DNA of 45,223 nt. Origin: Phycisphaerae bacterium (GTDB lineage Bacteria > Planctomycetota > Phycisphaerae > SM23-33). The stretch spans positions 1-45,223 of the forward strand of contig DRGC01000040.1 in assembly GCA_011050235.1 (NCBI GenBank), given 5' to 3'. This document shows positions 27,909 to 44,918 of this stretch, one piece after another; within the stretch, counting starts at the first letter, position 1; every line of letters begins with the position of its first letter. The notes under the pieces were generated by a model. It saw nothing but the letters and a program-made list of their open reading frames with translations. It searched no databases and had not been told where the DNA came from. The translations under genes were made by a program, and so were the position numbers.

Positions 27909-29003
27909 TCACCCCCAATCCCGACGTCTGCGCCCCAGCAACAACACCCCCCCTGCCCCCAACAAAGAAACCGAAACCGGTTCGGGGATGGGGATCAGCA
28001 GGAAGGCACGTTCCTGCCCATTTGAGTTAAGGCCTTTTCCGACGATCCATCCGGCATCGTTGACATCGAACGCGCTCTCCAGCGTCCAGCCCTCATCAGA
28101 AGAAACCAGTTCGTTTAGGTCTGTCATGGCTGTTCCTTCAAAAAGGAAAGCGTGGTTGGCACCAGTCGCTGTCTTCGATGTACCAACAACGGCACCATGA
28201 ACATTGATCCCCTCTGCATTCGCCTGATCACCTCCAAGCGTGCCAAGGTCCGTTGCAGTCCAAGACGGCCCGTTTTCTTGCCAGAGACATGCGCGCATCG
28301 CCTCGTCATTCGTATATGCGTAGCCTACAACTTCTCCCACATCATTGATGTCTCTGGCGAGGCTACGTGATCCGCCCAATGTCCCAAGATCTTCAACACC
28401 ACCAGATTGCCAGATCACTGCGTGGGATACCCCAGATTCGTTGATCCATGAGTACCCGACGATGTCACCGCTGTTGTTTATCCCATAGGCGTTGCTGTGT
28501 GTCGCCCCAAGTGTCCCAAGGTCCGTGACAGTCTCGCCAGACCAAATTGCCGCGTGTGTGTGGCCGGCCGCGTCAATCCCGGCTAGGCCGACGATTTCTG
28601 ACTGATCATTGATCCCATACGCATTGCTGTAGTCCCAAGCTGGTGCATCAAGGGCACCGAGGTCCATCATCGATCCATCCCAGAGAAAGGCATGGTTGGT
28701 GTTGCTGACCGTCCAGGAGTACCCGACGATTTGTCCCAACTCATTGATTGCCATTGCGTAAGCCGGGCCACCAAGTGTGCCCAAGTCGGTCATCGTATCA
28801 GACTCCCAAAGGACCGCATGATACTCGCCAGCGATTTCGGCATACCCAGCAATCTGCCCGGCATTATTGATGCTTTCGGCAAGACTTCGGCCACCCGACA
28901 CGCCCAGGTCCATCAGCAAGTACTTGGGGGACGCGGCAATTGCCGGGCATGTGAAGAGCAGGAACAGTACGGCCACAAGGGATGGCCCCAAGCGATATCT
29001 CAT
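27909..29003 (-). CDS. HAF-repeat PEP-CTERM secreted protein
   Basis: A 364-residue exported protein: signal peptide (LVAVLFLLFTCPAIAA), then six to seven HAF repeats of about 45 residues of the form 'HAFLW...MTDLGTLGG...A..IN..G.IVGYS', predicted to fold as a beta-propeller, and a PEP-CTERM tail starting IPEPVSVSLL and ending GRRRRDWG. The tail directs sorting by an exosortase, after which the protein is released or anchored at the surface. It is the third gene of the SUMF1-LamG-HAF operon; the upstream stop and its own ATG are one base apart (TGA-G-ATG), with AAGGAAG ahead. The repeats are uneven at nucleotide level, so they are old. Confidence 0.9.
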   Translation of the reverse strand: MRYRLGPSLVAVLFLLFTCPAIAASPKYLLMDLGVSGGRSLAESINNAGQIAGYAEIAGEYHAVLWESDTMTDLGTLGGPAYAMAINELGQIVGYSWTVSNTNHAFLWDGSMMDLGALDAPAWDYSNAYGINDQSEIVGLAGIDAAGHTHAAIWSGETVTDLGTLGATHSNAYGINNSGDIVGYSWINESGVSHAVIWQSGGVEDLGTLGGSRSLARDINDVGEVVGYAYTNDEAMRACLWQENGPSWTATDLGTLGGDQANAEGINVHGAVVGTSKTATGANHAFLFEGTAMTDLNELVSSDEGWTLESAFDVNDAGWIVGKGLNSNGQERAFLLIPIPEPVSVSLLGAGGVLLLGRRRRDWG

Positions 29004-29004
29004 C

Positions 29005-29838
29005 TCAGCACTTCCTTATTATCAGGCTGACCCCGTGCCACTGCCGTTGCTTGCGTTTCAGCAGCGCCAGCCCGCCCAGGGCCAACAGCCCCATCGTCGC
29101 CGGTTCGGGAATCGGCGTGATGGGTGCGCCTTCGGTCACCCATGCCGGGTCCCATTGGTCACCGGCAGGCAGGTCATCGTATCCGAGGAGACCGTCAGAG
29201 CCGGTAGCCACTGCGTCGTGCATGATCTGTCCCTGGCCCTCGTTCAATCGCCAGTAGGCCAGCAGGCCTGCCTCTGTCCCGTACAACTCGGAATCCTTCG
29301 TCGCCTGTATCTCCGCAGCCGTGCGTGGTTGACCCCAAATGCGAACTTCGTCGATCAACCCAACGAACCTCAGACCGCCAATGCCGTCATGGTTGTTGTC
29401 GTCGGCCCCCAGAAACACGGGAGAGTCATCATAAGGCCAGGGAGGATTGTACTCCCAGAAGTCAATCTGGATACCGTCCAGGAAAAGCTCTCGGTAAGAC
29501 ACACCGGGGCCTGTCGTCGTAGCCGTTAGGGCGACGTGATGCCAGCGGTTGAGTTCGACGTCATCCACACCAACTTCCAGCGCCATGCGCGTGTTTGGCG
29601 AAAATGCCATCCAGAACGAGTCGCTCACGCCCGTTCCTGTGGGTTTCGTCATCAGGTGGTTCCAACTGCCCGGCGTGGAGTAGGCCTTGAACCACAATTC
29701 GATAGTGAACTCACTGGGTCGAAGAGCAACAGTGTCAGGAATCTTCGCAAACTCACCACCGTCAAAACGCAACGCCCCTGCATGTGCAGACGTGGAGATC
29801 AGGGCCGCGATCAAGCCTGTGAGCAGTCTCCTACGCAT
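29005..29838 (-). CDS. LamG/concanavalin-like PEP-CTERM secreted protein
   Basis: The 277-residue protein has a short signal peptide (LLTGLIAALISTSAHA), one LamG/laminin-G-like jelly-roll domain (FTIELWFKAY, RWHHVALTAT, IDEVRIWGQPRTAAEIQ, LLAYWRLNEG) and a PEP-CTERM tail beginning IPEPATMGLLALGG with LLKRK after it. About a dozen residues (QWHGVSLIIRKC) run past the basic cluster, longer than usual for the tail. Carbohydrate or glycoprotein binding is typical of the fold but unproven. Its ATG overlaps the stop of the SUMF1-like gene by 8 bases (ATGCGTAG), with GAGGAG in front, so it is translationally coupled. Confidence 0.88.
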   Translation of the reverse strand: MRRRLLTGLIAALISTSAHAGALRFDGGEFAKIPDTVALRPSEFTIELWFKAYSTPGSWNHLMTKPTGTGVSDSFWMAFSPNTRMALEVGVDDVELNRWHHVALTATTTGPGVSYRELFLDGIQIDFWEYNPPWPYDDSPVFLGADDNNHDGIGGLRFVGLIDEVRIWGQPRTAAEIQATKDSELYGTEAGLLAYWRLNEGQGQIMHDAVATGSDGLLGYDDLPAGDQWDPAWVTEGAPITPIPEPATMGLLALGGLALLKRKQRQWHGVSLIIRKC

Positions 29839-30874
29839 GGGCTCTCCTCTTCAGCAACGCCAGACTGCCCAGACCCAGCAACCCCAGCGCGGCGGGCTCA
29901 GGGACCTCGGAGACGCGAAACCCGACGTTGAGGCTCTCGGCCGCCGGGGAGCCGTAGTCGGGGAGCAACGCGAGCAGGTAGGGGGCGTAGATGTCGAACG
30001 ACCCGCCCCGAAAGCCGCGATACGACCCGTACAGGATCGCTTCGTTCCACTCGAACACGTTACCGCCCATGTCGAACGTGCCATAGGGACTCGCGGAGTT
30101 CTCGAACTCACCGGGCTCCGTACGGTAGTACGGGCTGCCGATGGATCCGCTGTCGTCGAAGTCGTTGAAGTTGGCATTGTTGCCGGGATCGGGGTCGATC
30201 AGATCGTGGCTCGGAAGGGAGTCGCTGCTCGTGGGGTAGTCGAAGTAGTTGCCAGTCGCGCCGTCGTTCTTGTGATAGGCGGCCTTGTACCATTCATCCT
30301 CTGTGGGGATGACGTAGCGAGCATCGGCCTCCCGCGTTACGGCCAGAAGGTCCGCATCGCTGGTCGCGCCGTTGAGGAAGTACGAACCATCTTCGGTCGT
30401 CGTCAGGTCCTGGCTGCCGGTGGGCATGCCGTTGGTCAGCCAGTTGCTGAATCGTGCCGAATCACCCCAGGACACGTAGTTGGGTGGGCGGTCTTCCCAA
30501 TCGGCCGCCACTGCATAAGTGTAGCTGCCGGCCGAGCCGCTGCGCTGGATGTTGCACCCCCAGACACCCGACGGGTCGGCCATGTTCGTGTTGTACAGCC
30601 CATACGTATCCGTCGCCGCCACGGCGTTGAGGAACTCGGTGTACTGACCGGCCGTCACCTCGAACTTGCCGATGTTGTAGGCGTAGTCCACGCCGCCGTA
30701 GCCGTCGCCGTGGGTGTCGTCGGCGTTGCCCGGATTGCCCACGGTCATCAGCGGCATGTCCATGGTCGTGGCGAAGTCCACCACCGCATCGCCCGACAGG
30801 TCAGCCCGGATACCCGCCTGGACCAGACCCACAGATACGATCAGAACGGCTGCTGCGAAAATAGCCCTTCGCAT
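29831..30874 (-). CDS. SUMF1-like (FGE-sulfatase fold) PEP-CTERM secreted protein
   Basis: A 347-residue exported protein: signal peptide (IFAAAVLIVSVGLVQAG), a SUMF1/EgtB/PvdO-type domain (YNIGKFEVTAGQYTEFLNAV, VSWGDSARFSNWL, YVIPTEDEWYKAAYH, GNVFEWNEA, YRGFRGGSFD, NVGFRVSEV) and a PEP-CTERM tail (VPEPAALGLLGLG). It retains one Cys in the mature protein, so the Cys pair of genuine formylglycine-generating enzymes is absent; it is more likely a binding or structural domain. The ATG at 30874 follows GAAGAGGAG; the longer open frame upstream crosses repeat A and is not used. First gene of the operon; a good promoter lies at 30955-30983. Confidence 0.88.
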   Translation of the reverse strand: MRRAIFAAAVLIVSVGLVQAGIRADLSGDAVVDFATTMDMPLMTVGNPGNADDTHGDGYGGVDYAYNIGKFEVTAGQYTEFLNAVAATDTYGLYNTNMADPSGVWGCNIQRSGSAGSYTYAVAADWEDRPPNYVSWGDSARFSNWLTNGMPTGSQDLTTTEDGSYFLNGATSDADLLAVTREADARYVIPTEDEWYKAAYHKNDGATGNYFDYPTSSDSLPSHDLIDPDPGNNANFNDFDDSGSIGSPYYRTEPGEFENSASPYGTFDMGGNVFEWNEAILYGSYRGFRGGSFDIYAPYLLALLPDYGSPAAESLNVGFRVSEVPEPAALGLLGLGSLALLKRRAHA

Positions 30875-30954
30875 GATGCGCTCCTCTTCAATCTCTCGGA
30901 TGTGATGGCCGGCCCTGGCTGATGCCCGTCCTCCCTGACAGCCGGATGCTACCA

Positions 30955-30983
30955 CGTATAGCAATTCGCCACAATCGGGTGAA
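30955..30983 (-). promoter_or_regulatory. Sigma-70-type promoter for the SUMF1-LamG-HAF operon
   Basis: The -35 TTCACC and -10 TATACG are 17 bases apart, and the -10 is extended (TGC before it). Predicted start near 30948, about 74 bases before the ATG. Repeat A lies 33 bases upstream of the -35 box. Confidence 0.6.
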
Positions 30984-31016
30984 CACCTTACTCCTGCAAG
31001 ATTGTTGGTGGGGAGC

Positions 31017-31094
31017 CGGCCCGCAGCAGGCCGCGATGGCGGCCGGTGCGGCGTGGTGGGGGGTGGTGGGGGTTTTCGCGTGCATTCATCTGCG
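31017..31094. repeat. Dispersed intergenic repeat, copy A
   Basis: About 75 bp nearly identical to copy B at 37176-37245, apart from a short G/T-rich expansion in the middle and a few substitutions. It fills the divergent gap between the SUMF1-like operon and the membrane protein gene. The rest of the gap (30875-31229) holds the promoter above and the ribosome site of the plus-strand gene. Confidence 0.8.
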
Positions 31095-31229
31095 GCGACG
31101 CGGAAGCTTTTTGGGCAGGTCGGGTGGCCGGGAAGCGCCGATTGAAGTATGCTCGTCTCATCGGCTGGCCCGACAAGCGTGTGATGACCACGCTGCCGGC
31201 GAGGGAGCTTCGTTGTGAAAGGGATACAC

Positions 31230-32018
31230 ATGCAGACATTCAAGACATGGTTGACGGTATTGGGAACGGTCCTGATTGGCTACTTCCTGACGATGGTTGT
31301 GGCGGTCTACAGCGTCGTGCTGATTCTTGCCGGAACGAGAGGCGAGATTGTGTATGTGAGAATATCACCGTGGTGGGGATGGAGTTGGCGCTACTCCCAC
31401 GTCACCGAATGGGGCGCTTTGGGCTGGGGAGAGCCGCTGCTCACAGTCATCGTTCCGCTGCTGATTTTCTTTACGATATGGACCCTCCGCAGCCGTCTGA
31501 GTCTGTGGGCGCTGACCTTCGCCGCAGTCGCCATGGGTGCGATGGGCGCCAACCTGCTCAGCAACACAATCACCGAAGTGATCGGCGCCGAATGGTGGGT
31601 GGTCATGGGGACAACCAAGGCATTCCTGGTGGGGGTCAGTTTGGTCCTGTGCGTCGGGTCCTTGATCCTTGCGTTGCCGCTGGCAAGCATGCTGGGACTA
31701 GGACGCGGGCGATGCTCTCTGCTCAAGACGCTCTTGGTGGTGGGCACTCCGATCCTGTGCTATCTGGCAGCCATGATGGCCTACCACTACACCGACAAGC
31801 CGGACTTGCGCATGGTATGGATCGGATACCTTGCCGTTGGAGCAGTCGTGGTCGCGGTGGGCGCGCTGCTGAGTCATCTGGCAGCGCCACTGTTTGATCG
31901 GCCGGAAGTAAAGGCTCGTTCGCCGCAAATCACCTGGCTGACCGCTGGGATGAGCCTGCTGGTCGCCGCAGTGCTCATCACACTGTCGGCCTTGTCCCTG
32001 TACCCCTTCGCCAAGTAG
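31230..32018 (+). CDS. Seven-TM membrane protein of unknown function
   Basis: A 262-residue protein with seven clear hydrophobic segments, for example VLIGYFLTMVVAVYSVVLI, LLTVIVPLLIFFTIWTL and LLVAAVLITLSALSL, and short loops. A Trp/Tyr-rich outer loop (ISPWWGWSWRYSHVTEW) follows the first helix. I recognise no family. Two starts are possible: ATG 31230 with AAAGGG 6-7 bases ahead (chosen) and GTG 31215 with GGGAG 7 bases ahead. It stands between two PEP-CTERM genes transcribed the other way, but nothing in it suggests an exosortase: no conserved Cys, Arg or His pattern of that family was seen. Confidence 0.7.
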   Translation: MQTFKTWLTVLGTVLIGYFLTMVVAVYSVVLILAGTRGEIVYVRISPWWGWSWRYSHVTEWGALGWGEPLLTVIVPLLIFFTIWTLRSRLSLWALTFAAVAMGAMGANLLSNTITEVIGAEWWVVMGTTKAFLVGVSLVLCVGSLILALPLASMLGLGRGRCSLLKTLLVVGTPILCYLAAMMAYHYTDKPDLRMVWIGYLAVGAVVVAVGALLSHLAAPLFDRPEVKARSPQITWLTAGMSLLVAAVLITLSALSLYPFAK

Positions 32019-32102
32019 CCGTGCAGCCGTGTAGGAGGAGGAAAGGGCGCATGGTCCGAAAGCATCTGACTGCGGCGCTCACTTGCGACGTCTCAAGAGG
32101 GT

Positions 32103-33509
32103 TTAGCCTGCGTAGCCGCCTTTTCGGCGAAGCAGGGCCAACCCGCCAAGCCCAAGCAGCCCCAGAGTGACAGGTTCGGGGACAGTGCCTGTGGGGGCCG
32201 CGAGGCCGAAATTGGCTTTCAGGATGGCCAGGTCGGTGCCGTTGACCACGTCGTCCACGTTGAGGTTCGCGCCCGACCAGTCGATGCCGCTATCGCCAAA
32301 CGAGGCTTTCATGATGGCCAGGTCGGTGGCATTGACCAGACCGTCAAGGTTGGCGTCGCCGCGCTTGGTGCCGATGCCGCTTTCGCCGCCGGGCCGGCTC
32401 CACTGGACGAGATTCTCGATCATGTAGATCAGGTCGTCCTCGTCGGCATCGGCGTCGCCGTCGAGGTCGTAGGCCGGGTTGCCCATGTTGGCGACCAGCG
32501 CGGCAATGTCGTCGGCGTCGATGTCCAGATCGTCATCGAAGTCAGCCGCGCGGCTGAGACCGAGGACCTCGGTGAAATAGTAGTCGAGGTCGTCCTGGTC
32601 CAAGGTGTCATCGACGTTCATGTCGTACCAGAATCGGCCTTGCGCCGGCGTGGCGTTGGCGTCGACGGCGCCGCTGAGGATGGCGTAGTCGTCAAGGTCG
32701 CTGTCGCCGTCGAGGTCGAAATCGGCCATGTCCACACCGACGATCTCGGTGACCAGATACTCCAGATCGTCCCGGTCGACGTCGAAATCGAAATCGTAGT
32801 CGCCCAGGTAGTCCCACCCGCCGCCAATGTCCATGAAATCGTTGTGCTGGTGGATGTCGTCGACGTCAACGTCCGCGTCGCGGTCGTAGTCGCCCCAGAC
32901 GATGGAGTCATGCCACAGCCGGCCGTGGACCAACAGATTGCCGGGATTGACATGCTCGGTGGGGTCGACACGGATGTCGACGGCGAACCATTCCGGGTCG
33001 AAGTCCGGGACGATGAAGGGAGGGTCTCTAAAGAACGCGATATCCATGGGCGTGACGGCGGTGGCCTCGTCGATGTAGCCGGCGAAGATCGTCTGTCGGC
33101 CGATGTAGAGGGCTTCCTCTTCCGGCGTCAGAGATCCCACCGGCGGCACCCCAGCCGAACCGGTTTCCGGGTAGTCGGCGGTGGTCCAACTCAGGCCGAC
33201 TTCGATGTAGTGGCTTTGGCCGGTCAGTTCCGGATAGACCATGATCTGGGGCCAAATCTTCTTTCGGGCAGTCTCGCTCGGGTCGAGCGGACTTGGTCTT
33301 TCTTCGAGATCGTTGCCGTCCTGCGTGTTGTAGAACCACTGGCTCTGCCAGGCCGGGCCGGTGTTCTCGGACTCGACCCAGGCCCCGCCGTCGTGGCCGT
33401 TGCCCTCGCCCTCGACGACGAGGTTGTCCGGCGTGATCTCGGCCTGGAAGTAGCCTTGCGCGGGCCCAACCAGCGCGCACAGCACGCACATCGTGATTGC
33501 GATTCTCAT
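32103..33509 (-). CDS. Dockerin-type PEP-CTERM secreted protein
   Basis: A 468-residue protein with a signal peptide (ITMCVLCALVGPAQG), an unrecognised N-terminal beta-rich domain of about 200 residues, then many Ca-binding D-x-D-x-D loops (DYDRDADVDVDD, DFDLDGDSDLDD, DLDGDADADEDD) and two dockerin-like segments (RGDANLDGLVNATDLAIMK, DDVVNGTDLAILKANFG), ending in a PEP-CTERM tail starting VPEPVTLGLLGLGG. The terminal 110 residues are the shared cassette also found in the genes at 35344, 40912 and 42824. It is probably exported and calcium-stabilised; its binding partner is unknown. GGGAGG lies about 9 bases before the ATG at 33509. Confidence 0.88.
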   Translation of the reverse strand: MRIAITMCVLCALVGPAQGYFQAEITPDNLVVEGEGNGHDGGAWVESENTGPAWQSQWFYNTQDGNDLEERPSPLDPSETARKKIWPQIMVYPELTGQSHYIEVGLSWTTADYPETGSAGVPPVGSLTPEEEALYIGRQTIFAGYIDEATAVTPMDIAFFRDPPFIVPDFDPEWFAVDIRVDPTEHVNPGNLLVHGRLWHDSIVWGDYDRDADVDVDDIHQHNDFMDIGGGWDYLGDYDFDFDVDRDDLEYLVTEIVGVDMADFDLDGDSDLDDYAILSGAVDANATPAQGRFWYDMNVDDTLDQDDLDYYFTEVLGLSRAADFDDDLDIDADDIAALVANMGNPAYDLDGDADADEDDLIYMIENLVQWSRPGGESGIGTKRGDANLDGLVNATDLAIMKASFGDSGIDWSGANLNVDDVVNGTDLAILKANFGLAAPTGTVPEPVTLGLLGLGGLALLRRKGGYAG

Positions 33510-35343: not shown

Positions 35344-36957
35344 CTAACGTCTCCGGCGATGGGCCAGGATCCCGCCAACGCCCAGGGCCAACAGACTCAG
35401 GGAGATCGGTTCGGGGACCGCGCCGGTTGGGGCCGCGAAGCCGAAATTGGTTTTCAGGATGGCCAGGTCGGTCGCGTTGACGAGGTCATCGCAGTTGGCG
35501 TTGCCTTGGCTATAGACGACGCCGGTCGTGCCGAACCAGGTTTTCATGATGGCCAGATCCGTGCCGTTGACCAAACCATCGAGGTTGAAGTCGCCGCGCT
35601 TGGTGCCGATGCCGCTTTCGCCGCCGGGCCGGCTCCACTGGACGAGATGCTCGATCATGTAGACAAAGTCGTCTTCGTCAATGTCGCCGTCGCCGTCAAA
35701 GTCGTAGTACTGGCACAGGTCTGGGTCGAACTCCTCGCCGCTACCCACGACACCCGGGCCTGTCAAGGTCTGCGTGTGAGCGGGACCCGTCAGGTCGAAG
35801 ACATACGCCCGTCCGGGCTCCTCGTAGACCGGGTCCTCAGGGATGCTGATATAGGGGTCAGAATAGGGCGCCCCGATCACGGCGGTGTCGCCGTCGAGGC
35901 CGACGGCGTAACCGAACAGGCCGCCGGGCCGCGGAGACGGGGCCATCAGCGAGTACAGGAAGTCGCCAGTGGTCAGATCGAACACGCTTGCTGTTCCGCC
36001 GATCTCAAGAAGATCGCTATTATAAGGCGCCCCCACGATGGCGCGATCGCCGCTGACGGCAACGGAACGCCCAAATCCTTGGTCGTACCCGCCGGGATCG
36101 GTGAGCTTGAACAACTCATCGCCGGTCGTGAGGTCGTAGACGTAGGCAGCCCCGGTGTACCCGAGATCCGCGCCGGGGGCGCCGACGACGGCCAGATTGC
36201 CGTCAACGGCCACCGAAAAACCAAAGTCATTCATCAAGCCGGCGTCAATGGACGGCGTGAGCTTGTAAAGCTGCTCACCGGTGGTGACGTCGAAGACATA
36301 GGCGGCGCCGTCCAGACTGCCGCCGCCGTCATGCCTGTGGGCGCCGACCACGGCCAGATTGCCGCTGAGGGCCACCGTCGCTCCGAACTGATCATCCGCG
36401 GCCCCGTCGGAGGGCGTCAGCTTGCGAAGCTGCGTTCCCGTCATGGCGTCGAACACGTAGGCGGCGCCTGTATCAGCGACCAGCCCGTCGGCGCCCCTGG
36501 CTCCGGCCAGGACCCGCGTGCCGCTCACCGACACCGAACTGCCCAGATAACTGTGCAGCGATGCATCGTCGGCCATCAGCTTATGCATCTCGGCGCCGGT
36601 GGACGTGCTGTAGACGTAAGCGGCGCCGCCGTCACCGGCGGCTTCGTTATCATTGCCGGCCCCAACGACGGCAACAAGGCCATCCACCGAGACGGCGGCC
36701 CCAAATCCTTGGAACTCATAGCCGTCGGACGCCGTCAGGTAGCGCACCTGATCGCCCGTAGCCGTGTTGAATATGTAGGCCGCCCCGGACCAGGTATGGT
36801 CGTTGTCGGCCCTGGAACCAACGATCGTAAGGCCGCTGCGAACCGATACCGCCTGGCCAAACTCGTCGCTGTAGAGGCTCCCATAGGACCTCCCAGCGCT
36901 CAGCAGAAGACACACGCCCATCAGAACAGCCGCACAACAAGTCCGTGTCGCAATCAT
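35344..36957 (-). CDS. FG-GAP seven-bladed propeller, dockerin-type PEP-CTERM protein
   Basis: A 537-residue exported protein: signal peptide (CAAVLMGVCLLLSAG), seven FG-GAP-like repeats of about 55 residues ('FG.AVSV.G..AVVGA......G.AYVFD..TG') predicted to close a beta-propeller, then a Ca-binding region (DFDGDGDIDEDD), two dockerin-like segments (RGDFNLDGLVNGTDLAIMK and DDLVNATDLAILKTNFG) and a PEP-CTERM tail (VPEPISLSLLALG). The last 110 residues are the cassette shared with 32103. The ATG at 36957 has AAAGGGAG 5 bases ahead; the longer open frame upstream holds no domain. A short upstream ORF and a promoter precede it. Confidence 0.88.
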   Translation of the reverse strand: MIATRTCCAAVLMGVCLLLSAGRSYGSLYSDEFGQAVSVRSGLTIVGSRADNDHTWSGAAYIFNTATGDQVRYLTASDGYEFQGFGAAVSVDGLVAVVGAGNDNEAAGDGGAAYVYSTSTGAEMHKLMADDASLHSYLGSSVSVSGTRVLAGARGADGLVADTGAAYVFDAMTGTQLRKLTPSDGAADDQFGATVALSGNLAVVGAHRHDGGGSLDGAAYVFDVTTGEQLYKLTPSIDAGLMNDFGFSVAVDGNLAVVGAPGADLGYTGAAYVYDLTTGDELFKLTDPGGYDQGFGRSVAVSGDRAIVGAPYNSDLLEIGGTASVFDLTTGDFLYSLMAPSPRPGGLFGYAVGLDGDTAVIGAPYSDPYISIPEDPVYEEPGRAYVFDLTGPAHTQTLTGPGVVGSGEEFDPDLCQYYDFDGDGDIDEDDFVYMIEHLVQWSRPGGESGIGTKRGDFNLDGLVNGTDLAIMKTWFGTTGVVYSQGNANCDDLVNATDLAILKTNFGFAAPTGAVPEPISLSLLALGVGGILAHRRRR

Positions 36958-37301: not shown

Positions 37302-40268
37302 ATGAGCAAAGACAAGAGCAAGTACAAAGACACGCTCAACCTGCCCAAGACCACCTTTGACATGCGGGCGGGGCTGATCAAGAAGGAGCCCACCTTCCAG
37401 CAGCGGTGGCGTAAGGAAGACCTCTACGGCCAGTTGCGCAAGTACCGGGCCGGGTCGCCGCGATTCATCCTCCACGACGGGCCGCCCTACGCCAACGGCA
37501 ACATCCACATGGGCACGGCCCTCAATAAGATCCTCAAGGACATGGTCGTCCGCATCAAGAACATGACGGGCTTCGATGCTCCGTACGTTCCCGGCTGGGA
37601 CTGCCACGGCCTGCCGATCGAGGCGAAGGTCGTCGACGAGTTGGGCGACAAGGCCCGGCAGATGGCGGCGACCGATATCCGTAAGCTATGCGAGGCCTAC
37701 GCCAACAAGTTCGTCGCCATCCAGAGCGAGCAGTTCCAGCGTCTGGGTATCTTCGGCGAGTTCGACGATCCCTACATCACGATGCGGCCCCAGTACGAGG
37801 CCGACGTGCTGGAGGTCTTCGCCCGCCTGGTCGATCAGGGCGTCGTCTACCGCCAGCTCAAGCCCGTGCACTGGTCGATCGACAACCGCACGGCCCTGGC
37901 CGACGCCGAGTTGGAATACCACGACCGTCAGGACCCCGGCGTCACGGTCGCCTTCGAGCTGGCCTCGGGGCTGGACGCCGTGCCGCACACCCACGGCGAT
38001 TTCACCGCGCTGGGCATCTGGACGACCACCCCCTGGACCTTGCCGGCCAATCTGGCCGTGGCCATCCATCCGGCCTACGACTACGTCACGCTCCGCCTGG
38101 AGAGCACCTCGGGCCTGATCTCGCTGATCGTCGCCGCCGACCGCTGCCAGGCCATCCTCGACGCCATCGCCGCCGACCGCGGGGACTGGCTCACCAACCA
38201 CTCCGTCTCCGAGCCCTTTAAGGGCCAGCGCCTCCTGGACGCCAAGGTCACCTACCGCCACCCGTTGATCGACGGCAAGGTCTGCCCCGTCGTGGCGGCG
38301 GACTATGTCACGCTCGAAGACGGCACGGGCCTGGTCCACACCTCGCCCGGCCACGGGCTGGACGACTACCACACGGGCCTGGCCAACGGGCTGGACATCT
38401 ACTGCCCCGTCACCGCCGACGGCACGTTCGACGAGACGGCGCCCGAGTTCATCCGCGGCGTCAGCGTCTGGGACGCCAACGGCCTGATCATCGAACACCT
38501 GCGAACGCTCCAGACGCTGATCGCGGCCGAGACCATCATGCACTCGTACCCACACGACTGGCGGTCCAAGACGCCCACGATCTTCCGGGCGACCGAGCAG
38601 TGGTTCATCGCCGTCGACAAGCCGCTGGCCGAGACCGACGAGTCGCTCCGCGCGATGGCGCTGAAGCTGTGCAATCTCAGCGAAGACCGCGGCGTGCGGT
38701 TCATCCCCGGGTGGGGGCGGAATCGTATCGTCGGCATGCTCGAAAGCCGCCCCGACTGGTGCCTCTCGCGCCAGCGGTCGTGGGGGCTGCCGATCCCGGT
38801 GTTCTACAACCGCGACGGCCGGTCGCTGCTGACGCCCGACAGCGTGCGGGCCGTGATGAAGGTCATCGCCCAGGAAGGGTCCAACGCGTGGTTCACCAAG
38901 ACGCCGGCCGAACTGCTCGCCGATTATGACGCCGACAGCGACCCCCGTCTCGATGACCCCGGCGAGTTCCCGCTCGACGAGCTGGAGATCGGGCGTGATA
39001 TCTTCGACGTGTGGTTCGAGAGCGGCTCGAGCTGGTACGCCGTCGCGATAGCGCGCGGGCTGGCCGGCGAGATGCCCGTCGACCTGTACCTGGAAGGGTC
39101 CGACCAGCACCGGGGGTGGTTCCAGCTATCGCTGCTGCCGGCTTTGGGGGCGGTCAGCCGCCCGCCGTTTAAGACCGTGCTCACCCACGGCTTCGTCGTC
39201 ACCGAAGACGGCCACAAGATGAGCAAGTCGCTGGGCAACGCGATCGACGTGGTCGACCAGCTCAACACGCGCGGCGCCGATATCCTGCGCCTGTGGGTGG
39301 CCAGCCAAAACTATCAGGACGACATCCGCTGCAGCGACAGCCTGATCGCCCAGGCCGAGGACGCCTACCGGAAAATCCGCAACACGCTACGGTTCTGCAT
39401 GGGCAGTTGCAGCGATTTCGACCCCGCCCGCCACGCCGCCCGGCCCGGGGATCATTCGATCGACCTGTGGATGCGGCTGGAACTGCACGAGCTGATCCGC
39501 AATGTCCGGGCCGCCTACGACACCTACGAGTTCCACCGCGCGACGCGGCTGATGTACGAGTTCTGCACCGTGCAGGCGTCGAGCGTCTACATGGCCGCGG
39601 TGAAGGACCGGCTGTACTGCGAGCATCCCGAATCGCCGCGCCGCCGCGCCACCCAGACCGTCATGCACGAGATGCTGATGACGCTGGTCAAGCTGCTGGC
39701 CCCGATCCTGCCGCACACCTGCGAAGAGGCCTGGGAGCACATTCCCTTCCGCGATGTCACCGAGCCGCACAGCGTGCACCTGGCGTCCCTGCCGGACGTC
39801 GATACGCATCTGCTGCGGCTGGCCGAGGAGCTTCGACCCGTCGCCCCCGACGCCGGCCGATCGCTGCCCGACCAGTTGACCGAAGGCGCGACGTGGATCT
39901 GGGATCGCCTGCTCGACCTGCGGACGATCGGCCTGGGCAAACTCGAAGACCTCCGCAATGCGGGCGTCAAGAATCCCCTCGATACCGAGGCCGTCTTCCT
40001 GGTCCCCGAAGGCGACGACGCGGTGCGGGGATTCATCGAACTGTATCTCGCCGAACTCGAGGACATGCTGGGCGTCGGCCACGCGCGGATCGACACCGGC
40101 CCGGCGGCCGAATCGGCCATCGCCGACGTGACCGTCCACGACACGCGCGACCAATACGAGCGCTGCGCCCGAAGCTGGAAACGCCGCCCCGACGTTGGCT
40201 CGGACCCCGACTACCCCGACCTCTCCGCCCGCGACGCCGCCGCCGTCCGACTGTTGGGCGGTTCGTAG
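37302..40268 (+). CDS. ileS: Isoleucyl-tRNA synthetase
   Basis: This class I synthetase of 988 residues has the HIGH-type motif in GNIHMGTALNK (69-72), the WDCHGLPIE segment, the editing domain, and KMSKS at 639-643 in DGHKMSKSLGN. The C-terminal region keeps the outline of the bacterial zinc finger (ERCARSWKRRPDVGSDP...), but only the first of its four Cys remains: CxxC has become C955-S958 and the second pair reads S975-D978. The enzyme is otherwise complete. ATG 37302 is used; an in-frame ATG at 37257 would add 15 residues. The last few codons and stop are duplicated, decayed, at about 42295-42318. Confidence 0.96.
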   Translation: MSKDKSKYKDTLNLPKTTFDMRAGLIKKEPTFQQRWRKEDLYGQLRKYRAGSPRFILHDGPPYANGNIHMGTALNKILKDMVVRIKNMTGFDAPYVPGWDCHGLPIEAKVVDELGDKARQMAATDIRKLCEAYANKFVAIQSEQFQRLGIFGEFDDPYITMRPQYEADVLEVFARLVDQGVVYRQLKPVHWSIDNRTALADAELEYHDRQDPGVTVAFELASGLDAVPHTHGDFTALGIWTTTPWTLPANLAVAIHPAYDYVTLRLESTSGLISLIVAADRCQAILDAIAADRGDWLTNHSVSEPFKGQRLLDAKVTYRHPLIDGKVCPVVAADYVTLEDGTGLVHTSPGHGLDDYHTGLANGLDIYCPVTADGTFDETAPEFIRGVSVWDANGLIIEHLRTLQTLIAAETIMHSYPHDWRSKTPTIFRATEQWFIAVDKPLAETDESLRAMALKLCNLSEDRGVRFIPGWGRNRIVGMLESRPDWCLSRQRSWGLPIPVFYNRDGRSLLTPDSVRAVMKVIAQEGSNAWFTKTPAELLADYDADSDPRLDDPGEFPLDELEIGRDIFDVWFESGSSWYAVAIARGLAGEMPVDLYLEGSDQHRGWFQLSLLPALGAVSRPPFKTVLTHGFVVTEDGHKMSKSLGNAIDVVDQLNTRGADILRLWVASQNYQDDIRCSDSLIAQAEDAYRKIRNTLRFCMGSCSDFDPARHAARPGDHSIDLWMRLELHELIRNVRAAYDTYEFHRATRLMYEFCTVQASSVYMAAVKDRLYCEHPESPRRRATQTVMHEMLMTLVKLLAPILPHTCEEAWEHIPFRDVTEPHSVHLASLPDVDTHLLRLAEELRPVAPDAGRSLPDQLTEGATWIWDRLLDLRTIGLGKLEDLRNAGVKNPLDTEAVFLVPEGDDAVRGFIELYLAELEDMLGVGHARIDTGPAAESAIADVTVHDTRDQYERCARSWKRRPDVGSDPDYPDLSARDAAAVRLLGGS

Positions 40269-40302
40269 CGGCAGACGCTCGCCCCTGAAGGAATCCTGGC
40301 TC

Positions 40303-40478
40303 GAAAACACCGAGAGCGGGATTGGGGATTATGGGGATTAGAGGATGTACTTCTGGGGCGGCCGGACTTGCGCGACCGCTTTGCGATGTCGAAAACAGCG
40401 AGAGCGGGATTTTGGGATTGGGGGGATTGGGGTATGTTCTTGGCATGGCTGGAGTTGCGCGGCCGCTTTGCGGCGTCG
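40303..40478. repeat. Two tandem 88-bp segments
   Basis: Segments 40303-40390 and 40391-40478 are similar copies beginning GAAAACA(C/G)CGAGAGCGGG and containing GGGATT runs. One related copy occurs in unit 2 at about 42349-42437. No gene is evident in 40269-40795. Confidence 0.75.
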
Positions 40479-40501
40479 CGCTCTTTGTGCTCTTTCCGCC
40501 T

Positions 40502-40611
40502 GCGGCGGATCTTCGACCCTCCTGCGGCGGATCTTCGACCCTCCTGCGGCGGATCTTCGGTCCTCCTGCGGCGGATCTTCGGTCCTCCTGCGGCGGATCT
40601 TCGATGTGGCC
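40502..40611. repeat. 22-bp tandem repeat, five copies (unit 1)
   Basis: Units start at 40502, 40524, 40546, 40568 and 40590, each containing GCGGCGGATCTTCG. Copies 1-2 and 3-4 form pairs differing by two bases. The 22-bp period shifts frame each time, so it is not coding. It lies about 80 bases upstream of the TATACT box. Confidence 0.9.
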
Positions 40612-40689
40612 TTTGTGGTGAGCTGTTTCTTTGTTCGCAAACGGTCGAAATCCCCTGCCGGATATTCTAGCATTTTCGCTGGTTTCGGT

Positions 40690-40695
40690 TATACT
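40690..40695 (+). promoter_or_regulatory. Candidate -10 box, unit 1
   Basis: TATACT in a segment that is strongly conserved in unit 2 (TTTTCGCTGGTTTCGG precedes both). No good -35 hexamer is present, so an activator binding the tandem repeats upstream is conceivable. Confidence 0.4.
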
Positions 40696-40795
40696 GTCGG
40701 TGGTTATTGACGCCCTCGGGGCAGTCATTCCTTTGGGGCGTACACGTGTCGGATGGGCGAGACGAGTTGAGCAGGAGCAACGATGGGGACATCCA

Positions 40796-40897
40796 ATGAT
40801 GAAGACACTTCAACCCATCGCATTGACGATGGGTCTGCCATCGATTGGCGGCGTGGCCCTGTTGCGACGCCGGCGGAGCGGAGGTCGGACAACATAA
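40796..40897 (+). CDS. 33-residue ORF resembling a free-standing PEP-CTERM tail (unit 1)
   Basis: The ORF reads MMKTLQPIAL then TMGLPSIGGVALLRRRR and a short SGGRTT end. It is a hydrophobic segment followed by an Arg cluster, the layout of a PEP-CTERM anchor without the PEP triplet or a preceding domain. GGGGA lies 6 bases ahead of the first ATG, and the TAA stop overlaps the AAGGAG site of the next gene, so the two could be translationally coupled. The same ORF is identical in unit 2. A different frame from 40783 (AGGAG 6 bases upstream) reads through into the next gene and is the competing explanation. It could also be the relic of a lost gene's 3' end. Confidence 0.45.
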   Translation: MMKTLQPIALTMGLPSIGGVALLRRRRSGGRTT

Positions 40898-40911
40898 GGA
40901 GACTGTGCGTG

Positions 40912-42261
40912 ATGAGAAAGTCAATGAGTGTGTGGGTCGTATCCCTGGTCTTGGCCTGCCTCGCCATCGTGGGCGTTGCCTCGCCGGCCAGCGCGGTAGT
41001 GCAGGCCGGCGTTGTCGGCGGGGGCATACACAACCAGTACGGCCCGCAGGACGCCGGCGGCAACTACATGGGCATCGCCTCGGAGTCGTATGACTTCTAC
41101 AGCGACGCCCTGTGGGGCTTCACAGGATGGGGCGACAACTTCCCCACGTGGTCCGGCGCTCAGAGGCCACCGGACGGCATCGGCTATGGCTACGTACTGC
41201 TGGCGTTCAACCCGTACACGGGCGAGGTATGGAACGACATACCGGCAACGCATCAGGCACTGAACCCCGCTGGCACCTACTCTGGCCATACCCCCACGGT
41301 CGGCCTGACCGGTGTCGACGGCAACGGTGACCCCGTCTCATCCGACGTCGTCACGGAAGACCTGGCCCGCGGCTATGCCGAGGACACCGTCTACATCACC
41401 GGTGCCTTCATCCCGCGCCCCAATGATGGCGTGAACGTCGAGCCCTTCGGCTCGTTCGTCAATACCTCGGCGGATGGCGGCATCCTCGGCGTCCTCTCGG
41501 GCAGCCGAGAGGTGGCCTACAACACCAGTTGGGGCGCCCTGCTCCCTGATGGGGCCGAGGTCAAGACCTATGCTGCCGGCGATGGCGATAGGCCTGGTGG
41601 AATGTATGGGGACCCAGGCGGCGACCTGGACTTCGACCACAACAAGACCTGGGGATACACGGGATTCTGGAACTGGAGGGGGTGGTACGCGGGCGATGAG
41701 GGTGGCGTGGCGGACTCGATCTTCGGCTTCGAGATGGACGGCATCAAGGGCTGGATGAGGCTGGACTTCGCCGCCAACCACAGCGGCGTGCGGCTGACGG
41801 AGTACTACTTCGATCTCTTAGTGCCGGGCGATTTTGATGGCGACGGCGACGTCGACGCCGACGATATCGACATCCTGTGCGACAACTTGGGCGACGTGGC
41901 CTACGACCTGGATGGCGACGGCGACGCCGACGAGGACGACATGATCTTCCTGATCGAGACCCTCGTCGAATTGCAGGACGCTTCGGGACGTGTCGGTACC
42001 AGGCGAGGCGACTTCAATCTGGACGGTTTTGTAGACGGGACGGACCTGGCGCTGATGAAGACCGCGTTCGGCCAGCCGGGCCAAAGCTATGCCGACGGCA
42101 ACGCCAACTGCGACGCCTTCGTCGACGGCACGGACCTGGCGATCCTGAAGACCAACTTCGGCTTCATCGCCCTCCCAAGCCCAGGCGGCGTCCCCGAGCC
42201 GGCGACCTTGGCCTTGCTGACAATGGGCGGCCTAACGCTGCTGCGGAGGCGGCGAAAGTAG
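40912..42261 (+). CDS. Dockerin-type PEP-CTERM secreted protein (unit 1)
   Basis: A 449-residue exported protein with a signal peptide (VWVVSLVLACLAIVGVASPASA), an N-terminal domain of about 280 residues that I do not recognise (GGGIHNQYGPQDAGGNYMG, FNPYTGEVWNDIP, IFGFEMDGIKGWMRLDF), a Ca-binding region (DFDGDGDVDADDIDILC, DLDGDGDADEDD), two dockerin-like segments and a PEP-CTERM tail (VPEPATLALLTMGG). ATG 40912 has AAGGAG 10 bases ahead and is followed at once by the signal peptide; the in-frame ATG 40783 would place 43 polar residues before it. Paralogue of 42824-44119, from the tandem duplication. Confidence 0.88.
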   Translation: MRKSMSVWVVSLVLACLAIVGVASPASAVVQAGVVGGGIHNQYGPQDAGGNYMGIASESYDFYSDALWGFTGWGDNFPTWSGAQRPPDGIGYGYVLLAFNPYTGEVWNDIPATHQALNPAGTYSGHTPTVGLTGVDGNGDPVSSDVVTEDLARGYAEDTVYITGAFIPRPNDGVNVEPFGSFVNTSADGGILGVLSGSREVAYNTSWGALLPDGAEVKTYAAGDGDRPGGMYGDPGGDLDFDHNKTWGYTGFWNWRGWYAGDEGGVADSIFGFEMDGIKGWMRLDFAANHSGVRLTEYYFDLLVPGDFDGDGDVDADDIDILCDNLGDVAYDLDGDGDADEDDMIFLIETLVELQDASGRVGTRRGDFNLDGFVDGTDLALMKTAFGQPGQSYADGNANCDAFVDGTDLAILKTNFGFIALPSPGGVPEPATLALLTMGGLTLLRRRRK

Positions 42262-42459
42262 CGCCCCCAAATTAAGGTCCTTGATAGGTACGGCCGCCTG
42301 TTGGCCGAGTCGTAGGGCACACGCTCGCCCCTGAAGGGGTCCCGCCTCCAAAACAACGAGAGCGGGATTTCGGGATTATGGGGATTGGGGGATGGTCTTG
42401 GGGAAGCCTGAGTTGCGCGGCCGCTTCGTGTCGTCGCGATCTTTGTGCTCTTTCCGCCT

Positions 42460-42525
42460 ACGGCGGATCTTCGGCCCGCCTACGGCGGATCTTCGGCCCG
42501 CCTGCGGCGGATCTTCGACCTGGCC
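42460..42525. repeat. 22-bp tandem repeat, three copies (unit 2)
   Basis: Copies start at 42460, 42482 and 42504, with the core CGGCGGATCTTCG as in unit 1. Here two copies keep a complete CCGCC-TAC-GGCGG palindrome at their junctions. The copy number (3 against 5 in unit 1) has changed since the duplication. Confidence 0.88.
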
Positions 42526-42602
42526 TTTGTGGTGAGCTTCTTTTCGTTCGCGGACGGGCGAGATTACCTGCCGGCTCTTCTAGCATTTTCGCTGGTTTCG
42601 GT

Positions 42603-42608
42603 TATACT
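42603..42608 (+). promoter_or_regulatory. Candidate -10 box, unit 2
   Basis: TATACT in the same context as 40690-40695, including the identical TTTTCGCTGGTTTCGGT stretch ahead of it. Confidence 0.4.
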
Positions 42609-42707
42609 TCGGGTGGTTATTGACGCCTCGGGGCCGTCATTCCTTTGGGGCGTATACTTGTCGGATGCGCGAGACGAGTTGGGCAGGAGCAACTATGGGG
42701 ACAGCCA

Positions 42708-42809
42708 ATGATGAAGACACTTCAACCCATCGCATTGACGATGGGTCTGCCATCGATTGGCGGCGTGGCCCTGTTGCGACGCCGGCGGAGCGGAGGTCGG
42801 ACAACATAA
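42708..42809 (+). CDS. 33-residue ORF resembling a free-standing PEP-CTERM tail (unit 2)
   Basis: Identical in nucleotide sequence to the ORF at 40796-40897, while the bases just before and after both copies differ at roughly one in ten positions. It ends in TAA overlapping AAGGAG, 14 bases before the ATG of the dockerin gene. The conserved core is a hydrophobic stretch plus RRRR. Confidence 0.45.
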   Translation: MMKTLQPIALTMGLPSIGGVALLRRRRSGGRTT

Positions 42810-42823
42810 GGAGACTGTGCGTG

Positions 42824-44119
42824 ATGAGAAAGGCAACGAGTGTATTGGTCGTATCCCTGATCTTCGCCTGCCTCGCCTCGTCGGCGAGCGCAGCGGTGCA
42901 GGCCGGCGTTGTCGGCGGCGCCGGCATCCACAACCAGTACGGCCCACAGAACGCAGGGGGTGACTACCTGGGCATCGCGTCGGAGTCGTACGAGGCCCTG
43001 ACGGATTGGGAGGCGGGCTTTTGGGAATTTGTTGCCGCCCAAACCACCCCGGACGGCTTTGCCGGCTTTGTGCTGCTGGCCTTCGACCCCTACACGGGCG
43101 AAGTTTGGAGCCAGGTCCCGGACGACCAGCAGGCGCTGGGCGGCGCTGGCAGCTACGTCGGCCATGCCCCGACGGTCGGCCTGAGTGACGTGGATGGTGG
43201 CGGCGACCCCATCTCCTCCGACGTGGCAGTACAGGACATGGGTCGCGGGTATACCGACGACACCATCTTCATCACCACCTTGTTCGCTGATTTTGCTCCG
43301 TATTACCAGTACGGCATGTCCGTTCACACGTCCCCCGATGGCGGCCTCCTGGCGGGCCCCGGCCCCGTCTCCGGCGAACGGGGGCTCTTGTACGGTGGTG
43401 AGGAGATCAGGCCCTACGGGGCTGGCGAGGCCCTTCCAGTCTACGACGCCGTCTACGCCGGTCTTGCCCAGGACTTCTCCTATACCACGGCCCAGGCCTA
43501 CAACGATTGGTGGTACGCCGAGGGCGAAACCTCCGTCTACGCCGGCCACAATGGCGAGGGCGGCCTCTTCGGCTTTGAGATGGATGGCATCCGCGGCTGG
43601 ATGCAGCTGGACTTCTCCCCCGGGGCGGGGGCGGGCGGCGTCCGCCTGACGGAGTACTACTTCGATCTCTTGACGCTGGGCGATTTTGATGGCGACGGCG
43701 ACGTGGATGCCGATGACATCGACATCCTGTGCGACAACTTGGGTGACGCGGCCTACGACCTGGACGGCGACCTCGACGCCGACGAGGACGACATGATCTT
43801 CCTGATCGAGACCCTCGTCGAGCTGACCGATGGCGTTCGCGTGGGCACCAAGCGCGGCGACTTCAACCTCAACGGCCTGATCGACGAGACGGACCTGGCG
43901 CTGATGAAGACCTCCTTCGGCCTGCCGGGCATGGGCTTTGCCGACGGCAACGCCAACTGCGACGCCTTCGTCGACGGCACGGACCTGGCGATCCTGAAGA
44001 CCAACTTCGGCTTCATCGCCCTCCCAAGCCCAGGCGGCGTCCCCGAGCCCGCCTCCGCGGCCCTAATGTTGATCGTCGGTGGTTTCCTGGTCCGGCGCAA
44101 GCGCAGGGCCCTTGCTTAG
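42824..44119 (+). CDS. Dockerin-type PEP-CTERM secreted protein (unit 2)
   Basis: A 431-residue paralogue of 40912-42261. Signal peptide LVVSLIFACLASSASA; N-terminal domain with the same landmarks (GIHNQYGPQNAGGDYLG, FDPYTGEVWSQVP, LFGFEMDGIRGWMQLDF) but clear divergence; Ca-binding region DGDGDVDADDIDILC; dockerin-like segments RGDFNLNGLIDETDLALMK and CDAFVDGTDLAILKTNFG; and a PEP-CTERM tail starting VPEPASAALMLIVGG, ending RRKRRALA. This tail differs more from copy 1 than the adjacent dockerin does. After its stop codon the same frame continues into a second tail (44120-44206). Confidence 0.88.
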   Translation: MRKATSVLVVSLIFACLASSASAAVQAGVVGGAGIHNQYGPQNAGGDYLGIASESYEALTDWEAGFWEFVAAQTTPDGFAGFVLLAFDPYTGEVWSQVPDDQQALGGAGSYVGHAPTVGLSDVDGGGDPISSDVAVQDMGRGYTDDTIFITTLFADFAPYYQYGMSVHTSPDGGLLAGPGPVSGERGLLYGGEEIRPYGAGEALPVYDAVYAGLAQDFSYTTAQAYNDWWYAEGETSVYAGHNGEGGLFGFEMDGIRGWMQLDFSPGAGAGGVRLTEYYFDLLTLGDFDGDGDVDADDIDILCDNLGDAAYDLDGDLDADEDDMIFLIETLVELTDGVRVGTKRGDFNLNGLIDETDLALMKTSFGLPGMGFADGNANCDAFVDGTDLAILKTNFGFIALPSPGGVPEPASAALMLIVGGFLVRRKRRALA

Positions 44120-44206
44120 ACGCGGCGCGCTACGGCGGACAGGCCCGCCACGATGGGCTTGCTGGCGTTGGGCGGTGCGGCGCTGTTGCAACGCCGACGG
44201 TCGTAG
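44120..44206 (+). pseudogene. Orphan second PEP-CTERM-like tail, in frame after a stop codon
   Basis: Directly after the stop of 42824-44119 the same frame reads TRRATADRPATMGLLALGG then AALLQRRRS and a stop. That is a typical PEP-CTERM anchor (proline near the start, small hydrophobic segment, Arg cluster) with RPAT where PEPAT would stand. It is either a leftover of the tail that was once joined to this gene, or the end of a third repeat unit. It would be translated only by stop-codon read-through. Confidence 0.55.
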
Positions 44207-44294
44207 ATCCGCCGGGGCGGGAAGTAACGGTCGCTGCCAAAACGACTGTCTCGTCCCCCTTGTCGCCGGAGGCGGCATTGGGTAGCCTCTCGCC

Positions 44295-44918
44295 ATGGCG
44301 ACCTCCGCGATTCGACTGGGCGTTCTGATCTCCGGCGGGGGGCGGACGCTGTTGAATATCTGCGACGAGATCGACGCCGGGCGGCTGGATGCGCAGGTGG
44401 TCGTCGTGATCGCGTCGCGTCCGTGTAAGGGCATCGAGCGCGCCCGCTCCCGCGGGCTGGACGTGCAGGTTGCGGCTTACAAGCAGATGCCCGACACCGA
44501 GACCTACTCCGCCCGCATCGTCGAGATCCTCGATGCCGCCGGGGTCGAGTTGGCCCTCCAGGGAGGATTCCTGAGCCTCTGGCACATCCCGCGGCAGTAT
44601 GAGGGCAAGGTGATGAACATCCACCCCGCCCTGCTGCCCACCCACGGCGGGCGCGGCATGTGGGGCCATCACGTCCACGAGGCGGTCCTGGCCGCCGGTG
44701 AGAGCGAGTCCGGGTGCACCGTCCACTTCGTCACCAACGAATACGACGCCGGCCCCGTCATCCTGCAGAAGCGCGTCCCCGTCCTGGCCGGCGATGACGC
44801 CGACGCGCTGGCCGACCGCGTCTTCGAGGCCGAGTGCGTCGCCTACCCCGAGGCCATCCGCCTGTTCGCCGCCGGGCGGTTGACCATCGAGAACGGCTGC
44901 GTCGTCATCGCCGAATGA
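44295..44918 (+). CDS. purN: Phosphoribosylglycinamide formyltransferase
   Basis: This 207-residue folate-dependent GAR transformylase of purine synthesis converts GAR to FGAR using 10-formyl-THF. It has GVLISGGGRTLLNI at the start (an accepted variant of GSGSNLQ), the catalytic His in VMNIHPALLP, and the Asp in TNEYDAGPVILQ. The length is normal. It begins at ATG 44295 without a clear Shine-Dalgarno, in the gap after the dockerin gene, and stands alone here. It converges with the membrane protein at the window's end. Confidence 0.93.
   Translation: MATSAIRLGVLISGGGRTLLNICDEIDAGRLDAQVVVVIASRPCKGIERARSRGLDVQVAAYKQMPDTETYSARIVEILDAAGVELALQGGFLSLWHIPRQYEGKVMNIHPALLPTHGGRGMWGHHVHEAVLAAGESESGCTVHFVTNEYDAGPVILQKRVPVLAGDDADALADRVFEAECVAYPEAIRLFAAGRLTIENGCVVIAE

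Follow-up and report, generated by a model that had tools for sequence, protein, structure and literature searches.

The window is the whole stretch of DNA that was analysed, 45,223 nucleotides corresponding to contig C40 of the draft genome (4.0 Mb, 98 contigs) of an uncultured bacterium. No other genome among the listed relatives belongs to its genus. Towards the 3' end of the window four genes follow one another on the forward strand in the order ileS, gene 1, gene 2 and purN, and all four can be identified with curated models. The isoleucyl-tRNA synthetase gene ileS (37302–40268, 988 aa) matches TIGR00392 (E 1.8e-242) and PF00133, and purN (44295–44918) scores over the cut-off of TIGR00639. 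The two genes between them encode proteins of the same architecture, which consists of a putative signal peptide, a unique N-terminal domain (N-domain), a Dockerin_1-like module and a PEP-CTERM tail. Gene 1 (40912–42261) is 449 aa long; gene 2 (42824–44119) is 431 aa long and 65% identical to it.

In related genomes the two flanking genes can be found without this pair. Twenty-nine relative loci were scanned, seven of which were left out of the count with the ileS end or its flank cut short. In the other 22, which have at least 1 kb past a complete ileS C-terminal end, purN lies behind ileS six times, with gaps of 18–968 nt, and a PEP-CTERM tail lies behind ileS in none. The pair thus appears to be an insertion that is absent from the other lineages examined. 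More PEP-CTERM genes are located across ileS from the pair, on the minus strand (28900–32600 and 35344–36957). Directly past the stop codon of the gene that ends at 32103 lies a second-tail remnant, which falls below the threshold of the relic count given further below.

Putative signal peptides of both proteins were recognised by eye from a basic start, a hydrophobic stretch and an A-x-A-like site. The N-domain that follows has no Pfam or NCBIfam match. The genome has this domain three times, in gene 1, in gene 2 and on contig C18. No copy was found in the 346 other genomes of the class that were searched (347 including the host), and none was confirmed in GTDB contigs, in a search that may omit near records. 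On contig C18 (L062:4112-5356) an intact-looking orphan PEP-CTERM tail ORF lies directly upstream of the third homologue, and the same locus holds what we take, by eye, to be an IS66-like transposase remnant.

For the tails, TIGR02595 gives 25.5 and 27.5 bits in genes 1 and 2 (cut-off 16), and PF07589 gives 21.5 bits in gene 1, over its cut-off of 20.7, and 17.0 in gene 2, below it. Profile models of the PEP-CTERM domains, together with the signal peptides seen by eye, thus bear out the proposal of an earlier, sequence-only reading that these are surface-protein genes. A single EpsH exosortase is encoded in the genome (contig C43, PF09721, 187.7 bits). Judging from family membership, both proteins are most likely secreted, and this one enzyme would then cut them and either anchor or release them. 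The module resembles type I dockerins (PF00404) in its two Ca-binding-like repeats, calcium binding being a feature of that family. It scores 26.3 bits in gene 1 and, unlike a type I dockerin proper, only 16.2 in gene 2, below the curated cut-off of 22.9. A further difference is that no cohesin (PF00963) was found in the genome, and because of this cellulosome-type docking by the module is unlikely. A structure of gene 1 was attempted with AlphaFold2 from two sequences; the model reached a pLDDT of 30 and was discarded.

Gene 1 and gene 2 lie in two units of a tandem duplication. By repeat search and alignment, unit 1 spans 40244–42290, its 3' limit being approximate, and unit 2 spans 42291–44226, its 3' part apparently replaced. 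Collinear copies can be followed from 40270 versus 42316 (54 nt, 87%) through both genes, with identities by unit 1 segment of 86.5% (40389–40559), 85% (40630–40708) and 95% (40714–40965). The longest exact runs common to the units measure 128 nt (40793–40920, equal to 42705–42832) and 111 nt (42090–42200, equal to 43939–44049). At the junction, unit 2 opens with flanking-gene sequence (42291–42315) that derives from the ileS 3' end and has decayed. It matches the last 25 nt of ileS (40244–40268, inside unit 1), stop codon included, at 20 of 25 positions in register. Because this match fades upstream of 40244, where 30 nt still give only 20 matches, the breakpoint of the duplication is placed about 25 nt inside ileS. 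The sequence-only reading had described a tandem duplication at 40250–44206 that carried the ileS 3' end and broke inside or just before the end of that gene. The duplication and its break are confirmed. The extent is not, since unit 2 is homologous to unit 1 only as far as about 44049–44052 and not to 44206.

It is extremely improbable that the ileS-like bases of unit 2 arose by chance and that the duplication started just past the ileS stop. The match is indeed short and only 80%, and its TCGTAG recurs at PEP-CTERM gene ends in this genome owing to the GTAG repeats. However, 20 of 25 matches in register have a binomial p of ~1e-7, and 14 of 19 positions still agree (p 5e-5) once TCGTAG is removed. 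In local alignment the score was equalled in 0–1 of 1,000 shuffles. Among 532 ORF ends, ileS is the only one with at least 17 matches to the unit 2 start, the next best having 16. A match no better than chance, which the sequence-only reading had named as refuting, is therefore not what the alignment gave. A dispersed-repeat origin of the unit starts was likewise rejected: the ~40 nt behind ileS are not dispersed, in contrast to the REP-like and GGGATTGGGG-like motifs that come later.

Each gene is preceded by a leader that contains several small repeats. Unit 1 alone has an internal tandem duplication of ~88 nt (40301–40478; 40301–40391 versus 40389–40478, 79%). Its leader also has five 22-nt REP-like palindromes (GAAGATCCGCCGCAGG..) on the minus strand (40496–40604), and the unit 2 leader has three, likewise on the minus strand (42454–42514). 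A putative promoter may be present in a 29-nt motif (40667–40695) that is identical in both units and, with up to 3 mismatches allowed, recurs nowhere else in the genome. A 33-aa mini-ORF in the unit 1 leader (40796–40897) is a decayed PEP-CTERM tail (tail HMM 16.0 bits), and an identical copy is found in unit 2 (42708–42809, 17.0 bits). A GGGATTGGGGATT-rich motif at 40312–40356 and 40394–40441 has about ten further sites elsewhere in the genome, with two close inverted pairs among them (contigs C35 and C46), and may be a small hairpin-forming repeat.

The two genes were compared by Nei-Gojobori counts. Their N-domains differ at a pS of 0.515 and a pN of 0.290 (dS 0.87, dN 0.37). With dN/dS at ~0.4 there is no sign of positive selection on the N-domain, and the diversification of a surface protein that had been suggested is not visible in that form. 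Elsewhere pS is 0.17 in the signal peptide (from 18 synonymous sites only), 0.27 at module codons 302–355, 0.57 at codons 356–385, 0.02 at codons 386–427 and 0.54 in the tail. Such jumps inside one gene pair would not be expected from a single duplication date.

The pair can be judged against the other members of the family. Forty-two ORFs were found, of which two were dropped as too little of the module was covered, and the remaining 40 paralogues form 780 pairs. At codons 386–427, where 0 of 38 same-residue codons differ, gene 1 and gene 2 rank first of the 780; at codons 356–385 they rank 401st, which is ordinary. Their longest run of identical same-residue codons is 48, a length reached in 0 of 2,000 permutations, and 38 of the 780 pairs have a permutation p<=0.0005. 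Twenty-four copies of an 84-nt module core are present at >=90% over at least 68 nt, among 66 genome matches that include the window's two. Leaders had been said to be more alike than N-domain and tail; this holds, and it holds for the C-terminal module likewise. Because the synonymous divergence forms a mosaic, the similar parts look copied between units and not merely retained, and conversion or ectopic recombination between the copies seems the simplest reading of the pattern. Codon preference may contribute to the likeness of the module end. A GC-rich preference, together with a family-wide dip of mean pS to 0.31 at codons 391–405, could lower synonymous differences without conversion. In the leader, conversion cannot be separated cleanly from selection, because the leader is present only twice in the genome.

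An example of sharing between unlinked genes is provided by the 3' end of gene 2. A tract of 548 nt (43679–44226) is 93.8% identical to part of a paralogue on contig C61 (L065 6614-7161). The tract runs from the start of the module to 107 nt past the stop, with the last ~440 nt of gene 2 included. The tail codons are 100% identical, ranking first of 725 pairs, and the likeness is lost abruptly at 44226, 107 nt past both stops. The N-domain of the C61 gene is unrelated to that of gene 2. Since 43679–44226 nevertheless matches, the 3' end appears to have been exchanged between unlinked genes, and homologous-recombination copying would account for the sharing that is observed. Inside the module this pair has no significant run (p 0.11); the case for an exchange rests on the tail and the 3' flank. 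The tails had earlier been taken to have diverged in place, and that of gene 2 is instead common to the C61 paralogue.

Directly past the stop codon of gene 2 lies, in frame, the relic of a second PEP-CTERM tail (44120–44206, tail HMM 31.9 bits), which is also found at C61. Such relics were counted with a profile derived from this genome's own tails, a second tail being accepted within 120 nt past the stop. They occur on the same strand in 8 of 58 PEP-CTERM genes, the related gene 2 and C61 gene making up two of the eight. In the controls, the opposite strand gave 0 of 58, and three farther offsets gave 0–1 of 55–57. Five shuffled sets gave no tail HMM match of at least 14 bits. A common 5' junction motif (CTACGGCGG) was tried at the relic tails and is not convincing (4 of 58, versus 1–2 in controls).

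The relic tail of gene 2 is ended by the TAG of a REP-like palindrome (44203–44221, forward strand). GTAG REPs are described, as far as the source outlines them, as a GTAG with a short palindrome that occurs behind ORFs and whose TAG serves as a stop, Planctomycetes being among the reported carriers (Di Nocera et al. 2013, PMC3733652). The elements seen here resemble those of that outline in all these features, the TAG often being the stop codon. Many dispersed copies are present: the core AGATCCGCCG-n-GGCGG, mostly with GT or GA before it, has 28 exact sites in 4.0 Mb, and the reversed pattern has 0. In contrast to the outlined elements, the exact sites number only these 28, and 13 of them closely follow a PEP-CTERM tail on its own strand. 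Four of the others lie in the two window leaders, and 11 have no tail nearby. A looser form of the motif is located around or up to 120 nt past 9 of 58 PEP-CTERM stops (controls, 0 of 56–58 intervals). A further difference is that the pattern occurs within 1.5 kb of none of the six Y1 transposase (Y1_Tnp) genes. Mobilisation of the REPs by a RAYT was rejected, since none flanks these six genes. Four of the six lie up to 6 kb from a family match, a limit picked post hoc; at 4 kb the count is two of six (p 0.08). Because 3' ends are common by descent, the position of REPs behind tails is no proof that they bring about the exchanges.

Other repeat elements occur elsewhere in the genome. At L144, L147, L152, L162 and L170 a longer hairpin-like element holds the REP core between arms gcgGTGGATC and GATCCACCGC-like, not near PEP-CTERM tails. 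At L063:14841-17242 (contig C60) a tandem array of ~67-nt units with GGTCGG/CCGACC and AGAACGTCCG/CGTTCTCC palindromes lies behind PEP-CTERM genes.

According to Haft et al. 2006 (PMC1569441), PEP-CTERM tails are modules that expand rapidly within particular lineages and sit on proteins with no other relationship to one another. Within what that source sets out of the PEP-CTERM/exosortase (EpsH) system (TIGR02595/PF07589), the present family agrees in the putative signal peptide, in the PEP motif followed by a hydrophobic stretch and a basic cluster, in lineage-specific paralogous expansion, in proteins that lack homologues outside the tail, and in an exosortase in the genome. It differs from the system as set out there in that ~40 paralogues carry a Dockerin_1-like module of ~145 aa ahead of the tail, and in that tails and 3' flanks are common to unrelated proteins, with relic tails. 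The ~40 paralogues have the same C-terminal cassette and mostly unrelated N-domains. Because five of the 58 family matches lie right at the end of a contig (C60, C64, C71, C82 and C89), this number is probably an underestimate, and paralogue arrays may have been broken by the assembly. Open-licence papers searched for PEP-CTERM with gene conversion or tail relics, for exosortase with REP sequences, and for PEP-CTERM with dockerin and planctomycetes yielded none; PEP-CTERM together with domain shuffling came up in one paper.

Several simpler histories of the locus can be weighed against this evidence. A plain duplication, after which N-domains and tails diverged while selection kept the leader (promoter and 5' UTR), is an unlikely account. 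It would explain the 128-nt identical run in the leader and the 29-nt motif that only these two leaders have, but synonymous divergence is also low in the signal peptide and the module end, at codons 386–427, and the gene 2 tail is common to another contig. Nor did a scan find a sigma-70 promoter above chance in the leader, and a regulatory RNA was rejected with no Rfam match to E 1. Moreover, the most conserved leader stretch contains the decayed PEP-CTERM tail. The sequence-only reading was close to this account: the near-identity of the leaders stands, and so does the duplication, but retained control is neither borne out nor sufficient as the sole reason, and simple divergence is at odds with the pS mosaic and the C61 tail. 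Somewhat less probable still is a history in which no conversion occurred and strong codon preference with purifying selection was enough by itself to keep the end of the module similar across all paralogues. The dip in mean pS is family-wide, as this would require; yet at these codons gene 1 and gene 2 stand at the extreme among 780 pairs, their rank being ordinary one segment upstream, and the identity with C61 past the stop would be left unexplained. An assembly artefact, with units collapsed or chimeric, is very improbable. A draft of 98 contigs, identical runs of 128 and 111 nt, and family matches at contig ends all invite that suspicion. However, the units differ by ~5–47% per segment outside the identical runs, and gene 2 and C61 show scattered differences within their common tract, which a chimeric join would not be expected to leave.

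The reading that we favour, and consider quite likely, combines insertion, tandem duplication, drift and copying. In this model, a PEP-CTERM/dockerin-like surface-protein gene would first have arrived between ileS and purN. Next it would have been duplicated in tandem, with one break ~25 nt inside the ileS end, as the junction displays. The N-terminal domains may then have drifted apart under relaxed purifying selection, while the two copies were presumably homogenised in the leader with its adjoining signal peptide and in the last part of the C-terminal module. Finally, gene 2 would have exchanged its 3' end by homologous recombination with a paralogue elsewhere in the genome, with which it visibly shares module, sorting tail and 107 nt past the stop. 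That exchange may be one case of a genome-wide habit, reflected in the common cassette and in the discarded tails of the eight genes with relics.

A bolder model, which we regard as doubtful, is that the sorting signal is a movable cassette. REP-bounded tails would repeatedly be inserted before a resident tail or swapped for it, and the old tail would be left as a relic. An equally doubtful corollary is that the REPs bound the tails on the 3' side and supply the stop, with one such swap captured in unit 2. If this were true, REP-bounded tail exchange would re-address surface proteins, or would keep the common anchor uniform while N-domains vary.

The processes invoked in the favoured reading of duplication, drift and copying are mostly of known, ordinary kinds, the relic tails being the one unusual trait. 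These relics past the stop codon provide a concrete mark by which tail replacement can be counted in other genomes. Fast expansion of PEP-CTERM tails is known, although the way in which they spread has, as far as we found, not been worked out. The locus offers a nucleotide-level view of how such a family may grow, by duplication beside housekeeping genes, with N-domains that drift and anchors that would be kept alike by copying.
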